Assembly (NCBI GenBank): GCA_021733945.1
Contig: JAIPJX010000007.1
Span: 1-64,000 of the forward strand
Direction: 5' to 3'
Source: Verrucomicrobiota bacterium
GTDB lineage: Bacteria > Verrucomicrobiota > Verrucomicrobiia > Limisphaerales > SIBE01
DNA: 64,000 bases
Positions within the stretch are counted from its first letter, which is position 1, and each line of letters starts with the position of its first letter. A program made the position numbers and the translations under genes. The notes under the pieces were generated by a model. That model searched no databases. It saw only the letters and a list, made by a program, of their open reading frames with translations, and was not told the origin of the DNA. Below are positions 3,873 through 9,057 of the stretch, one piece after another.

Positions 3873-4028
3873 ACCACCGATCTCAGCCCGGAGACGTCGC
3901 CCCGCCGACGGGCCGACGTCCCGGGAAACCCGCCTTCCGGACGGCCTTCCCCGACAAATGTCGAATTCTTCAAAAACAGGGCTTGCAATTGATTCGGGTT
4001 TCGATAGCGTCATGTCGTCTTTTCGGAT

Positions 4029-4105
4029 GCGAGCGTAGCTCAGTCTGGTAGAGCGCAACCTTGCCAAGGTTGATGTCGAGGGTTCGAATCCCTTCGCTCG
4101 CTCCA
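4029..4105 (+). tRNA. tRNA-Gly (GCC)
   Basis: Full cloverleaf: acceptor GCGAGCG pairs with CGCTCGC. The D arm is GCTC/GAGC, the anticodon arm CAACC-TTGCCAA-GGTTG gives anticodon GCC, and the T arm is GAGGG-TTCGAAT-CCCTT. Discriminator T is followed by an encoded CCA (4103-4105). Confidence 0.97.
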
Positions 4106-4202
4106 ATCTCTACCACCCCCTTTCACAAACAAACCTCCCCCAACGGTCCGGACCACTTTCCATTCTGGGAACAGGACCACTGATTTTTAACCGCCGGGGA
4201 CG

Positions 4203-4278
4203 GCTCAGCGGGGACGCTTCGCCCTACCGAAATCGGGACGGGAAATGGGGAATGGTAGCGCGAACCGTCCCGGTGAGC
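4203..4278. repeat. Hairpin element ends, inside-out copy
   Basis: Inverted left end (GCTCAGCGGGGACGCTTCGC..., finishing CCCTACC at 4228) and right end (GGTAGCGCGAACCGTCCCGG from 4254) are separated by about 25 bp. This is the junction found between neighbouring units in the tandem arrays at 1-248 and 12501-13105, in the orientation of the latter. Confidence 0.75.
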
Positions 4279-4284
4279 GATCGG

Positions 4285-4600
4285 ATGTCTGCCTCGCGGC
4301 TGGAGCAGCGGATACCGAATCGGGATCGCCTCATTTTTTCACCGGAACGTAAGTGAAGGGCCGTGTTGTTTTTTTGTAGGGTATCAGGAAAGCGGCGTCG
4401 GCGCTACGCTCTGCCGCACGCACTCCAAAACACCGTCGTTCTTTCGACCCCATGCCTTGGAATCCATCCCTATTGCAGACACCAATTCCCTGGTTCGCCC
4501 AAACCCGTCGCCCTGTGGAGTGCGGCGGGCAGAGCGAAGCGCCGACGCCGCTTTGGTCGTACCTGAAGAAGCAAACCCGTTCACTCCCAATCAGGATCCA
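4285..4600. repeat. Composite dispersed repeat with inverted GGAGTGCG...CGCTTTGG arms
   Basis: Positions 4285-4351 (GGATGTCTGCCTCGCGG through TTTTTTCACCGGAACGTA) recur almost unchanged at about 24040-24107. They are followed by an inverted copy (4389-4426) and a direct copy (4517-4556) of a ~40-bp motif running GGAGTGCG...GGCAGAGCGAAGCG...GACGCCGCTTTGG. The same motif recurs at 17601-17640 and 24168-24207. The reading frames here have no recognisable protein family. Confidence 0.8.
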
Positions 4601-4811
4601 ATTCGGTTCACCGGCAAGTTGAGGAACCCTGGAACCCTGAACTTCCGCCCCACAAACGAATGGCAGTGCCCCCACCCTGCTCCGGGATAATCACAAGTTA
4701 TTCACAATCCGGGGCTTGCATACACGAACCGGAGACATCGGTCGAAACCGGCAACGGGTTATGGATGAACACCTTCCAAAACCCGCCACACCAAAACTCC
4801 AAAAAAAGGAT

Positions 4812-4830
4812 ATACGACCGACGGTCGTAT
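4812..4830. promoter_or_regulatory. Orphan TetR-type palindromic operator candidate
   Basis: A perfect 9-bp inverted repeat around a single base: ATACGACCG-A-CGGTCGTAT. Its length, AT-rich ends and GACCG/CGGTC half-sites resemble operators of TetR-family repressors. No TetR-like gene and no intact downstream gene lie nearby, so it may be a relic. A chance palindrome or repeat-element part cannot be excluded. Confidence 0.35.
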
Positions 4831-4861
4831 CGTCAAAGTTCAGTCAAAACAAAAGTTTCTT

Positions 4862-5007
4862 TGTGGTTCTCTGCGACCTCTGCGGTCTCTGTGTTAAACC
4901 GCAGGTTCGAGCAGGACAATCGCTCAGGCTACCTCAAGAAGCTGGCGTCTCGGGCAGTCCCATGTTTTCTCTGAACGCGGAGCGCACAGAGGTCGCAGAG
5001 AACCACA
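4862..5007. repeat. Inverted repeat with CTCTGCGACCTCTG arms
   Basis: The 21-bp sequence at 4862-4882 (TGTGGTTCTCTGCGACCTCTG less its last base in quotation terms) is matched exactly in reverse complement at 4987-5007, with 104 bp between. Related 'tctctgcgtctctg' sequences occur at 6340, 6661 and 27945. The interior shows no gene. Confidence 0.8.
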
Positions 5008-5120
5008 GAGAGAGCGCTGCGGTCCGAGGCGACGGATCGAGCCCGGTCGCTCGGACTGATCCTCTCGGACTACGTGATCCAGCAAGCTGCTCAAGGATTT
5101 CAGCCTGCACGCGAACAACT

Positions 5121-5402
5121 CCCGCCAAAATGGCGGGACACAGGCTCCCCCACCCTCACCGCCATTCGTTTAAGGGATTCGGTCGTGTCACCTTGGTTTC
5201 GCGGACGGGCACTCTGCGTGGGGTCGTCGCACCGCTGGACGCGGCACCTGTCTGTCGCAGCGCGACAGACTCCACCCTGCTCCAAACCCTACCCGAATCC
5301 AGACTCCACCCGGGTCGGCAGCTGCCTCCGCCGAGGATCAACGTCGCACCGGATCGTTCACCGGGGTCGTCCGTTTGGAGTCTCTGCGGGAGAATCCTTC
5401 AC
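5121..5402. repeat. Intergenic stretch with hairpin and CCATTCGTTTAAG element
   Basis: Holds a 7-bp perfect hairpin, CCCGCCA-AAA-TGGCGGG (5121-5137), without a following T run. A copy of the 21-bp CCATTCGTTTAAGGGATTCG element (5162-5182) recurs at 17433-17479 and 23998-24018. From about 5387 it enters the GCGGGAGAATCCTTCACTTA repeat tail. No gene is supported. Confidence 0.6.
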
Positions 5403-5440
5403 TTACCTGATTCGTCCGTTTTGGGGGCGAGGTCGCTGGC
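5387..5440. repeat. GCGGGAGAATTCTTCAC repeat tail
   Basis: About 45 bp (GCGGGAGAATCCTTCACTTA then CCTGATTCGTCCG and GGCGAGG) are shared with 6361-6405 and 6722-6756. The copy overlaps the last ~14 codons of the brnA frame, so the repeat appears to have replaced or extended that gene's 3' end. Confidence 0.7.
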
Positions 5441-5672
5441 GGCCTGACTCTGACTCAAGCTTGAGCCGATCTGCGATCCAGACCTTGATGATTGCCTGGC
5501 GCGTGCCCCCCAACCGCCTGGCCTGAAGATCGAGGGCCTGGACAACCCACACCGGAGAATCCACATTCACCCGCTTCTGCTCGAAGGCGGGGCGGTGGAC
5601 GGATGAACGATCGACATGGGAGGAAATGTCTCCGACCTCATCAAAGATCCGGTCAAAGTCCTTCGCTTTCAT
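5403..5672 (-). CDS. brnA: BrnA-like antitoxin (CopG/RHH type)
   Basis: An 89-residue protein resembling BrnA antitoxins, which bind DNA through a ribbon-helix-helix domain and neutralise the RNase toxin BrnT. Visible family features are the start MKAKDFDRIFDEVGDIS, the segment KRVNVDSPVWVVQALD (beta-strand plus first helix), and RRLGGTRQAIIKVWIADRL (second helix). AGGA lies eight bases before the ATG. The usual protein stops soon after the last helix. Here about 18 extra residues (LESESGRQRPRP...) are encoded mostly by a dispersed repeat, so the C-terminus is probably not ancestral. In brnTA operons the toxin gene precedes the antitoxin; only a toxin remnant is present just upstream at 5683-5760. 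Whether it is still expressed is unknown. Confidence 0.7.
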   Translation of the reverse strand: MKAKDFDRIFDEVGDISSHVDRSSVHRPAFEQKRVNVDSPVWVVQALDLQARRLGGTRQAIIKVWIADRLKLESESGRQRPRPQNGRIR

Positions 5673-5682
5673 TGTAAAGATC

Positions 5683-5760
5683 CTAATCCCGCGCTCGCCT
5701 GACCGAAATCAGTCGGATCCCACCCTCCCGGACGGCATGTATGGCGCACACTGCGCCGGC
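5683..5760 (-). pseudogene. brnT toxin 3' remnant
   Basis: In the frame ending at the TAG at 5683-5685, ten bases before brnA, the last codons read VREGGIRLISVRRARD. This matches the C-terminal beta-strand signature of BrnT toxins (IRLIS.RRA). Upstream the frame soon meets stop codons, and the N-terminal and catalytic part of BrnT is absent. The spacing and order are those of a brnTA operon, so this is best read as a toxin gene deleted from its 5' side by the event that placed the DPP-IV-like fragment next to it. Confidence 0.6.
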
Positions 5761-5799
5761 GGGTATTTCTCTTGTGCCAGCACCCGTTAAAGCTTAAGC

Positions 5800-6217
5800 T
5801 CATTCGAGCTTTGAAGAACAAAAAAACCTCGCCCACAGGATCTGCCTCAATAAGGATGCGGCTGCCGTCCGGTGAAAACTCGTAACTTCTGATAATGAAC
5901 CGTCCGTTTTCACCGGAAGAGGCGAGCTGCGCGGCTGAAATCACCTCTGTGGATTTGCCACTTTTGGCATCATAACTCACCAGAACCTGACGGCCATTGC
6001 CTGTCTCGGTTTCAAGAACCATGTAGGCAGAACCATCCGGAATCCATTTGGCACTGAACGATTTTGCGTTGAAGGCTCTCTCCTCATAAATCGCCCGGAG
6101 TCTCTCCCTGGCCTCTGCGGGCACAACAGCCTTGCCATTGGATGGCGCTATCTTTCCTTCCTGGGCAAATAGACCGGAAATGAGGATCAGCTGAATCAGG
6201 ACCATTGTTCTTTTCAT
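5800..6217 (-). pseudogene. 5' fragment of a DPP-IV-like (S9B) peptidase gene
   Basis: The frame begins MKRTMVLIQLILISGLFAQ, a plausible Sec signal peptide. It continues with ARERLRAIYEERAFNAKSF, a short strand pattern, and YEFSPDGSRILIEAD. This is the typical start of the beta-propeller of secreted dipeptidyl-peptidase IV-like proteins. Homology stops after about 125-135 residues; the remaining frame to 5669 is unrelated sequence that runs into the brnT remnant. Full-length members exceed 700 residues and carry the catalytic alpha/beta-hydrolase at the C-terminus, so the product would have no peptidase activity. Confidence 0.65.
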
Positions 6218-6237
6218 ATCTTCTACTTAAATTGATG

Positions 6238-6946
6238 GGAACCAGGGAACTGGAGTTTAACCACGGATGGCTCGGATGGCCACAGATTCAAATGAAGGGG
6301 CCGCGCTCTGGCGAAGAAAACCCGGGAAAACAGCCGCCCCCTCTGCGTCTCTGTGCCTCCGCGGGTGAATTCTTCATTGACCTGATTCGTTCGTTGGAGG
6401 CGAGGACGCGCTTGTTGTGAATCGAAGGGGGTTGATCATTCCCGGAGACGATGTGAGTTATTCCTCACGGATGATCGACCACCGTATCCTCCCCCGTTCG
6501 CCGCTTGAATCCCGAGCCTTTCTAAAAACAGGAGCCGACGTAAGAAGGCTTTCTTCCTCAACTTCAAAACCGGTCGGTTGCCAGAGCATTTTGAGCCTCG
6601 TCACCTCGGCTCCTACCATGGAATTGGAATTCTCAGACAGGCCCTGAGAAGGAATATATCCCGCAGAGACGCTGGGACGCAGAGAGAAAGAATCCATCCC
6701 CCCTCTGCGTCTCTGCGCCTCAGCGGGAGAATTCTTCACTTACCTGATTTGTCCGGCGACATCCCCCCATCCTTCTGCTCATTTGAGCAGGGAATCAGCA
6801 AAATCCAGAAACCAGTTCCTGTCTTGCAGGGCTGAATCCGGAAGCGATCGAAGTAAGATCCGATGCCATCAACGACGTGACAGCGGGCGTCCGGGTGGGC
6901 AGCGAGCCGACACACCATTCCACCGCCCTCCAAGAATCGCGAAGCG
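6238..6946. repeat. Intergenic region with 'tctctgcgtctctgcg' palindromic repeats
   Basis: Two copies of a repeat family lie at about 6340-6405 and 6661-6756. The second holds inverted arms GACGCAGAGAG / CTCTGCGTCTC. Both end in the shared tail GCGGG(A/T)GAATTCTTCA...CCTGATT. Other open frames here have no recognisable family, and nothing supports a gene between 6757 and 6946. Confidence 0.6.
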
Positions 6947-7105
6947 TCATGGAGTGCGGTAGTCCTCTCCGCTTTCCGGCCGATCCGTGGTTCGGGAGTC
7001 CCGGAGATTGTCCGCCTGGGACCAGACGCTGAAATACGGATCACAGGCCACCAGCGGCACAGCGGTTTCAGCCACGATTCCTTCCCTGCTGGCATTTGTG
7101 ACCAT
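6947..7105 (-). pseudogene. 5' remnant of a glutaminase-like (DUF4965/DUF5127) gene
   Basis: The minus-strand frame contains AETAVPLVACDPYFSVWSQA followed by DNLRDS. The 'PLV..DPYFS.WS.AD.L' pattern is the highly conserved N-terminal motif of the secreted glutaminase GtaA-like family, whose members exceed 600 residues. About 15 codons later the frame stops at 6947, and no continuation was recognised in the other frames. There is no signal peptide in this frame, so both ends of the original gene seem lost. Confidence 0.5.
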
Positions 7106-7224
7106 GATGTGACACATTAAAATCCACCCGCATCGAAGCGGGCAAAGGAGAAAGTCGAGAACCCAACGCCCGACACGCAAATTTCGCGGCTGGTCGCGAA
7201 ACACAACCAATCAAAGGAATCAAC

Positions 7225-8205
7225 ATGATGAAATACACAGGCACACTTCAGAGGAGGATCGCCTGGGTGAGTTTTCGCTGCTTCGCGCCAGTCGCCGCAG
7301 GCGGACTACTCATCGGGTGTGCATCCGTAAATCCGGAGCCGTTCGCCCAATACCGGAGCGCCGTGCAGGAAGCACAGACCGGCATCGATGCCGCCATGTC
7401 CGTCAATTACACCTGGACACGATCCGGTTACATTGAGGGTTTCTCCAGCGACCCGGATTCGAGGTTCACACAGCTGATGATTCAGCCCGGGCAAGGCTAT
7501 GACTGGTCGCTGCCAAACCCGCCAATCTATCTTGGCGTAAAGCAAGCCCGAAGCGGTCTTGCGGAATTGAACCAGGCTTTCGCCCAATACGCCGATCTAT
7601 TGGGAAGGCTGGCAAGTCCCGATCTTGTGGACACAGCGAGTTTTGACCAACTGGCCAGGGATCTCAACCAGAATGCAACGGACGCAGCGAACGTGCTTGG
7701 GCTCGGCTCTCGTCCGGAAGGGATTGCGCTTTTCTCCGCCGCAGCATCCGAGGCCGCGCGTTTATACATCGACAACCGCAGGCAACATCACCTGAAAAGG
7801 GCCATCGAGATAAACCAAACCAATGTGGAAGATTACTCTGCTCTCTGCGTGTCGCTGCTCCACACGATTCGAGGAAACGTCAAGGCATACTATGCCGATC
7901 GAACGGAGCCGATTAAGAACGGGTGGCATTCGACCACCGGAAAAAAACGCGAAAAAAACACTGAAGCCATGCTGAACCTGAACGAGCAGTACGCGGATGT
8001 CATGCGGGTCCTGCAGGAATTGGAAGCGGCTTACAGCGCGCTGCCGGAGGGTCACGCCGACCTTGCCAGGGCGATTGAGGCACCGAAGCCTGACGTCGGC
8101 GGACTCCGGAAGCTCCAGGCCTCAGCAAAAAGACTCCAACATCTTTACGATGAACTGAAAAAAACCGCGGAAAAAGAAACGAAGCCGGAAACGCCACAGG
8201 ATTGA
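7225..8205 (+). CDS. Lipoprotein of unknown function
   Basis: A 326-residue protein with a short basic N-terminus, a hydrophobic segment and a lipobox LIGC with the lipidated Cys at residue 32, so it should be anchored to a membrane facing the periplasm. The mature part is mainly helical with a heptad-like C-terminal half (ELEAAYSALPEGHADLARA, LRKLQASAKRLQHLYDELKK) that could form coiled coils. A WTRSGYIEGF...DWSLPNPPIYLGVKQAR segment is distinctive, but I do not recognise the family. AAAGGA precedes the start by a suitable distance. The next gene begins three bases after the stop, so the two form an operon and probably act together. Confidence 0.85.
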   Translation: MMKYTGTLQRRIAWVSFRCFAPVAAGGLLIGCASVNPEPFAQYRSAVQEAQTGIDAAMSVNYTWTRSGYIEGFSSDPDSRFTQLMIQPGQGYDWSLPNPPIYLGVKQARSGLAELNQAFAQYADLLGRLASPDLVDTASFDQLARDLNQNATDAANVLGLGSRPEGIALFSAAASEAARLYIDNRRQHHLKRAIEINQTNVEDYSALCVSLLHTIRGNVKAYYADRTEPIKNGWHSTTGKKREKNTEAMLNLNEQYADVMRVLQELEAAYSALPEGHADLARAIEAPKPDVGGLRKLQASAKRLQHLYDELKKTAEKETKPETPQD

Positions 8206-8208
8206 TCC

Positions 8209-8556
8209 ATGAAACCCACCGAAAAGAACCTTCTGCTGGACAGGTTGAGCGTCTGCTACAACCGCATCAATTACCTCAAGGCGCTTTGTGAAGAGCAAGG
8301 CCTGATCGATGAAGCCGTACGGTTAGGGCGTCGAAAGGACCGTCTTAAGCTGGAGATTGACGGGCTTTTGCGCGATTTGTACCAGGATTGGATAGGCGAT
8401 GCCAGCGCGCTCAGGAAACGGCTGGATGTGTCCAACAAGGCCATCGATGCGGCTGTGAAAGACATTGAGAAGAAGATCAAACTCGCCGAGAACATCGTGA
8501 AAGTCCTTGGCTATATTGACGAGGGGATTGAGATCGCGGCCGGCCTCGTAACCTAG
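8209..8556 (+). CDS. Small coiled-coil protein of unknown function
   Basis: A 115-residue protein without a signal peptide or clear membrane segment. It is almost entirely helical and charged (LLLDRLSVCYNRINYLKALC, KDRLKLEIDGLLRDLY, AIDAAVKDIEKKIKLAENIV) with a slightly hydrophobic end (VLGYIDEGIEIAAGLVT). It lies three bases downstream of the lipoprotein gene, so translational coupling is likely and a physical partnership is plausible. No family was recognised. If it stays cytoplasmic, it cannot contact the mature lipoprotein, so its location is the key open question. Confidence 0.8.
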   Translation: MKPTEKNLLLDRLSVCYNRINYLKALCEEQGLIDEAVRLGRRKDRLKLEIDGLLRDLYQDWIGDASALRKRLDVSNKAIDAAVKDIEKKIKLAENIVKVLGYIDEGIEIAAGLVT

Positions 8557-9057
8557 TGTAACCAAATATATTTTGAAAGAATTGAAATCAGAGCCGCCAC
8601 GCCGGAGATTTTTATGAATTGACTGTCAGTGGGAGTGTTTTGAACCTCCAAAACCAAGCGGGCGTAGTTGCTGCGGCGGGTTTGTTCCATAACCCGCTCA
8701 AAAATCAGAAACGAGGACCTTTGGGTGACGAAGACCGGGAAACTGCTGCTTTGCTGTTCACAGATTGTGTCTCGAATGGTAGAATATTCCTGCTTCAGAC
8801 GATGAAGCGTCCCATGTTCAAATTCAGCGTTTTCTGGGCATGCGTTTGTTGTTTCGGTGCCGCCCCTGTGCCTCTTCCCGTTCAGGAAATTACGCGGGAC
8901 CAGTTCGGATGCAACTGCGAACGCTCGTTTTTTATACCGCAGGCCATCCAGGGAGACGGGCGAATCGCCGTGACTGGCGATCGTGCTGAGAACCGTTGCA
9001 TCGTCTCGGTTTCTCCGAGCTCGTTCCGGGCCGGAAGACCAATTATGGACAACTACC
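8557..9057. other. Intergenic, no gene supported
   Basis: About 500 bp with open frames on both strands but no recognisable protein family, no ribosome binding site in a convincing position, and no tRNA or obvious terminator. It presumably contains the promoter of the LVIVD protein gene. Confidence 0.5.

Follow-up and report, generated by a model that had tools for sequence, protein, structure and literature searches.

The window analysed here is the 64,000-nucleotide stretch at positions 1 to 64,000 of contig JAIPJX010000007.1 from a Verrucomicrobiota bacterium (assembly GCA_021733945.1), and the locus in question is a brnTA toxin-antitoxin module in which the antitoxin gene, brnA, is full length and the toxin gene, brnT, is reduced to a remnant of its C-terminal end. 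The orphan brnA occupies 5672..5403 on the minus strand, and its frame of 89 codons (89 aa) is uninterrupted along its entire length. The product covers the full NCBIfam NF047399 model (BrnA antitoxin; 1-70 of 70) with 96.2 bits against a curated cut-off of 60 and is thus a member of the BrnA family. A Pfam search of the same product gave no significant match, PADLOC left BrnA unmatched, and a search of solved structures returned nothing credible. AGGA stands 8 bases 5' of the brnA ATG, and the start codon overlaps, as ATGA, the stop of an upstream open reading frame (ORF) at 5669..6217, so that translation of brnA may be regarded as plausible. No sigma-70-like promoter, the one promoter type scanned for, was found in 5300-6500. 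The Rfam scan of 4000-9000 yielded only a tRNA above its gathering score and no RNA element near brnA; three matches to miRNA families at 6651-6735 all fall far below their gathering scores.

The first-pass annotation, made from the letters alone, had proposed that the antitoxin was kept and the toxin lost, with the frame before brnA, which terminates ...VREGGIRLISVRRARD-stop, representing a BrnT C-terminus; a profile search was named as the way to refute it. We searched the window with a BrnT profile derived from 66 full-length relatives located upstream of BrnA homologs, all 20 members of the relatives' BrnT alignment being matched by PF04365. The profile recovers VCAIHAVREGGIRLISVRRARD at 5751..5686 on the minus strand, corresponding to model positions 57-78 of 85 (18.9 bits, E 1.6e-4). 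This piece ranks first among 2039 six-frame pieces of the window of at least 10 residues, the runner-up reaching 5.0 bits; the 600 bases upstream of brnA, put through 1000 dinucleotide shuffles, score 7.2 bits at best. Pfam PF04365, applied to a hand-cut 28-residue piece, gives E 0.0014 and 19.3 bits over 21 of 77 positions, the Pfam cut-off being 34.5. The upstream frame is thus BrnT-like by both profiles, and the antitoxin-without-toxin proposal holds. The piece lacks a full-length PF04365 domain above the gathering score and is a remnant, not a member gene; with only model positions 57-78 of 85 left directly upstream of brnA, the locus also lacks the intact brnT of a functional brnTA module.

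The translation of the upstream frame, ...AVCAIHAVREGGIRLISVRRARD-stop-DLYNESEGL-stop, points the same way. The TAG that follows RARD comes too early, and beyond it the reading continues as DLYNESEGL-TGA into brnA; the stop and this continuation span 5653..5685 on the minus strand. The intact relatives L008 and L012 end ...EEVALYESEGL and ...EEVALYEGEGL, and their brnT stop also lies inside brnA. The BrnT frame therefore stops early and then resumes to the usual stop of the family inside brnA, as expected of a remnant. Taken with the profile match, the BrnT tail before brnA is real and its stop premature. An extension of the remnant upstream through EIPA, which resembles a conserved BrnT stretch, was rejected, as it lies outside the profile match and its bases resemble a place on C193. 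In the search of solved structures, the BrnT alignment matches 7vd7 and 3u97.

Further upstream lies a truncated gene, the N-terminal fragment of a DPP-IV/S9 peptidase (5831..6217, minus strand), delimited by matches to relatives, e.g. residues 42-158 of L031, which has DPPIV_N and Peptidase_S9. The chimeric ORF 5669..6217, also on the minus strand, runs past the peptidase homology to the ATGA overlap with brnA. Same-order matches to this ORF occur in 22 of 116 genomes at E <= 0.001, own genome counted, and most of them sit in open frames of ~650 to 1090 residues. Peptidase homology ends at window 5831-5852 in nine of the ten relatives compared; the tenth, L041, which was matched by blastp, gave no tblastn match in the window. 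The remaining part of the peptidase was sought elsewhere in the window and rejected, matches outside 5831-6217 having E >= 0.11, and the search for a second copy of the peptidase N-terminus in the genome returned only a weak 30-residue match on C10. The first-pass annotation had the rest of the toxin replaced by an unrelated peptidase fragment. The fragment is indeed there, but it does not abut BrnT: a gap of ~80 bases, part of neither gene, separates the two homologies. Within these bases, 5759-5785 resembles the place on C193, weakly (30 of 34 aligned bases, E 0.0056; L152 728-760), where the match overlaps the end of an ORF. A repeated hairpin was considered for this stretch and rejected: a pattern made from the two copies, and hence not independent of them, finds only those two, and neither the copy at 5759-5785 nor that on C193 folds better than its shuffles (z -0.23 and 0.40). 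The overlap by ATGA might also suggest that the chimeric ORF and brnA make up a new pair, with the upstream product as a new partner. This we regard as extremely improbable, since the ORF consists of a peptidase N-terminus, after which comes sequence read out of the brnT frame, and neither Pfam nor NCBIfam matches it.

On its other side, brnA extends by its last codons into a dispersed repeat, matches to which cover 5382-5424. The repeat, of ~43 bases, is found at window 5330-5475, 6357-6409 and 6719-6755, and a 146-base query of it has 16 matches in the genome including itself, some of them close together on C215 and C37.

The assembly comprises 5,406,135 bases in 225 contigs and is 90% complete. 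At E <= 0.001, brnA is its sole match to NF047399, and the PF04365 search, with all seven of seven candidates scored, found no BrnT, although this search misses the remnant too. The BrnT family alignment likewise gave none at E <= 1e-10, with 14 of 34 candidates scored. The earlier suggestion that BrnA be tried against intact BrnTs of its own genome thus finds no partner for BrnA to neutralise in this 90%-complete assembly; a further brnT copy may sit in the missing part. The number of contigs and the completeness also speak for an assembly chimera, in which contig ends of a peptidase gene and a brnTA module were misjoined and the strain has an intact module, as does the resemblance (E 0.0056) of the short stretch beside the junction to the place on C193. 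Such a misjoin is very unlikely, given that the leftover brnT tail carries a premature stop as well, that the searches of the assembly yielded neither another brnA nor another brnT, and that brnT is similarly truncated, at other breakpoints, in other genomes. The only other genome of the genus from the family search has a brnA without BrnT within 600 bases (L153, G001:C144), which by eye lies near HicAB-like ORFs.

The other truncations come from a survey of 91 loci with a BrnA match, the genome searches giving loci for part of their matches. Twelve loci were dropped: L002 (identical to L001), L024 (same proteins as L023), L005, L006, L050 and L051 (partial or weak BrnA), L048 and L049 (weak), L028 (run of N), L030 and L047 (brnA also broken) and L076 (contig start). 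Among the 79 that remain, with classes assigned by eye from the table of profile matches, a full BrnT frame lies upstream of brnA in 63 and is missing in 16 including the window (15 of 78 without it). A 3' brnT piece alone is left in nine of the 16 toxin-less loci, starting at differing model positions: 57 in the window, 47 in L020, 75 in L027 (weak, E 0.2), 37 in L029, 50 in L044, 61 in L074, 28 in L100, 63 in L115 and 65 in L120. Both ends of brnT are present and the middle is gone in L102, and a 5' piece alone remains in L091, whereas no BrnT shows up within 600 bases in L004, L017, L043 and L090. In L087, brnT matches the whole model apart from a single stop codon (model position 25) and is followed by a full-length brnA. 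In 15 of the 16 toxin-less loci, the BrnA match begins at model position 1-3; in L043 it begins at 7. From the toxin side, 30 loci among the best-scoring family matches were sampled, and BrnA lies downstream in 26; L147, with an incomplete BrnT (positions 7-82), shows no BrnA. In L146 and L149, the ORF after BrnT by eye begins like BrnA and ends differently, and in L148 BrnA is matched in part (positions 4-29), by an ORF with a differing end; PMC11980606 mentions BrnTA fusions that have HTH in place of RHH domains. Both samples are largely chosen by score and non-random, and the asymmetry between toxin and antitoxin loss is suggestive only.

BrnT is lost repeatedly with BrnA retained, and a 3' piece of brnT often stands before the surviving BrnA. 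The translation start region of brnA, or an internal promoter, may lie in this piece; such loci would then be a recurrent end state in which BrnA is still made and makes the cell immune to mobile brnTA modules, with the window as one instance. This we consider unlikely. A single old lineage of orphan BrnAs was rejected, as orphans show no sign of clustering on the BrnA tree (14 changes versus 14.9 with shuffled labels); with 73 columns, many forks of the tree lack resolution, and the starred branches by themselves require only 2 changes.

In our view, the brnTA module of the window has probably decayed, with most of the toxin lost and the antitoxin gene still full length, and BrnA may by now be drifting. 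On the tree of 79 BrnAs, the end branch of the window protein measures 0.47, versus 0.04-0.09 for the other three in its starred set (L072 and L075, both paired, and the orphan L074). Seven of 71 residues of the window BrnA are found in fewer than 2% of the 75 rows outside the starred set. Among these are F to S and V to G (zero-based alignment columns 56 and 73) in the C-terminal half, which, to go by PMC11980606, should be the RHH domain. The leave-one-out score of the window BrnA is 170, and eight of 63 paired rows score lower. As a group, the 16 orphans have a median score of 188.6 versus 210.6 for the 63 paired BrnAs (Mann-Whitney p 0.026, relatedness ignored); among rows over 165, the comparison gives p 0.008, uncorrected for relatedness.

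Several observations weigh against decay and drift. In the leave-one-out analysis over all 79 BrnAs, eight rows including the window carry at least as many rare residues, and five of the other seven are paired with an intact BrnT. The lower score of the orphans as a group does not take relatedness into account, and orphans L020, L074, L100, L102 and L115 score as high as paired BrnAs. The genome is only 90% complete. Finally, the BrnA frame is open and full length and, at 96 bits, far above the family cut-off, so that drift is not proved; the long branch and the unusual residues lean towards it and are not proof.

The full-length frame is also what would be expected if orphan BrnA were kept as an anti-addiction factor that neutralises the BrnT of incoming plasmids or phages with a homologous module, a role proposed for orphan antitoxins generally (PMC7192599). 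Such modules do occur on plasmids: 27 of 72,556 records contain a BrnA relative, with 49-58% identity in the 12 rows listed, a BrnT family toxin is annotated at the match in ten of these 12, and some of the plasmids are only ~4.6 kb. A Synechococcus phage carries one BrnA relative as well (1 of 50,697 records). The homologous modules on plasmids make the idea possible in principle. We nevertheless hold it to be unlikely for this locus, as BrnA has a long branch and rare residues and no sign of stronger constraint, and none of the plasmid matches seen is from a near relative of the source genome; cross-neutralisation at 49-58% identity would be conjecture. Even less probable is that orphan BrnA now acts elsewhere as a transcriptional regulator through its RHH domain, although a regulatory role for orphan antitoxins has been suggested (PMC10790755). 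The stretch ahead of the brnT start, the presumed site of the module's own operator, is gone, BrnA has no known target, and some of the rare residues of BrnA fall in its C-terminal part.

Decay of the module agrees with published cases. A survey of 334 Pseudomonas genomes reports 23% of brnTA loci without an intact toxin ORF; for some of the antitoxin homologs, the neighbouring toxin gene is missing altogether (PMC7280312). The Pseudomonas loci resemble the window in keeping an antitoxin homolog next to a truncated or absent toxin ORF (23% there, 16 of 79 here). They differ in that a peptidase fragment precedes the broken brnT end in the window, and the likeness is drawn at the level of brnTA. 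In Brucella abortus, the toxin gene likewise precedes the antitoxin gene and BrnT belongs to PF04365, according to PMC5086665 and PMC11980606, whereas the toxin of the window is cut to its C-terminal end. The ribonuclease activity of BrnT needs Asp6, Glu7, Lys9, Arg41 and Glu78 (PMC5086665). Going by residue numbers rather than an alignment, the first four should be among the lost residues, and Glu78 should coincide with or follow the premature stop. Orphan antitoxins are described as abundant in Klebsiella and E. coli, where they were proposed to be anti-addiction factors, regulators or relics (PMC7192599, PMC10790755). Like the BrnA of the window, they are unpaired and invite the same candidate explanations; as described there, they belong to other hosts and to many other antitoxin groups, and the window locus is known from sequence. 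Orphan toxins as well as orphan antitoxins appear in a marine survey (PMC12654330). The window locus is one more case of the published decay pattern and, in this respect, ordinary.

We propose that a rearrangement placed the 5' portion of an S9 peptidase gene ahead of the 3' end of brnT and in doing so would have removed about two thirds of the toxin, and that the premature stop in the leftover brnT tail followed. The antitoxin gene would have stayed full length because losing the toxin first should be harmless and losing the antitoxin first should not. BrnA may still be translated and is most likely without a dedicated function now, drifting. The window locus, together with our small survey, contributes to the view that the decay of toxin-antitoxin modules begins with the toxin; should orphan BrnAs prove active, they would provide cheap immunity against mobile addiction modules.
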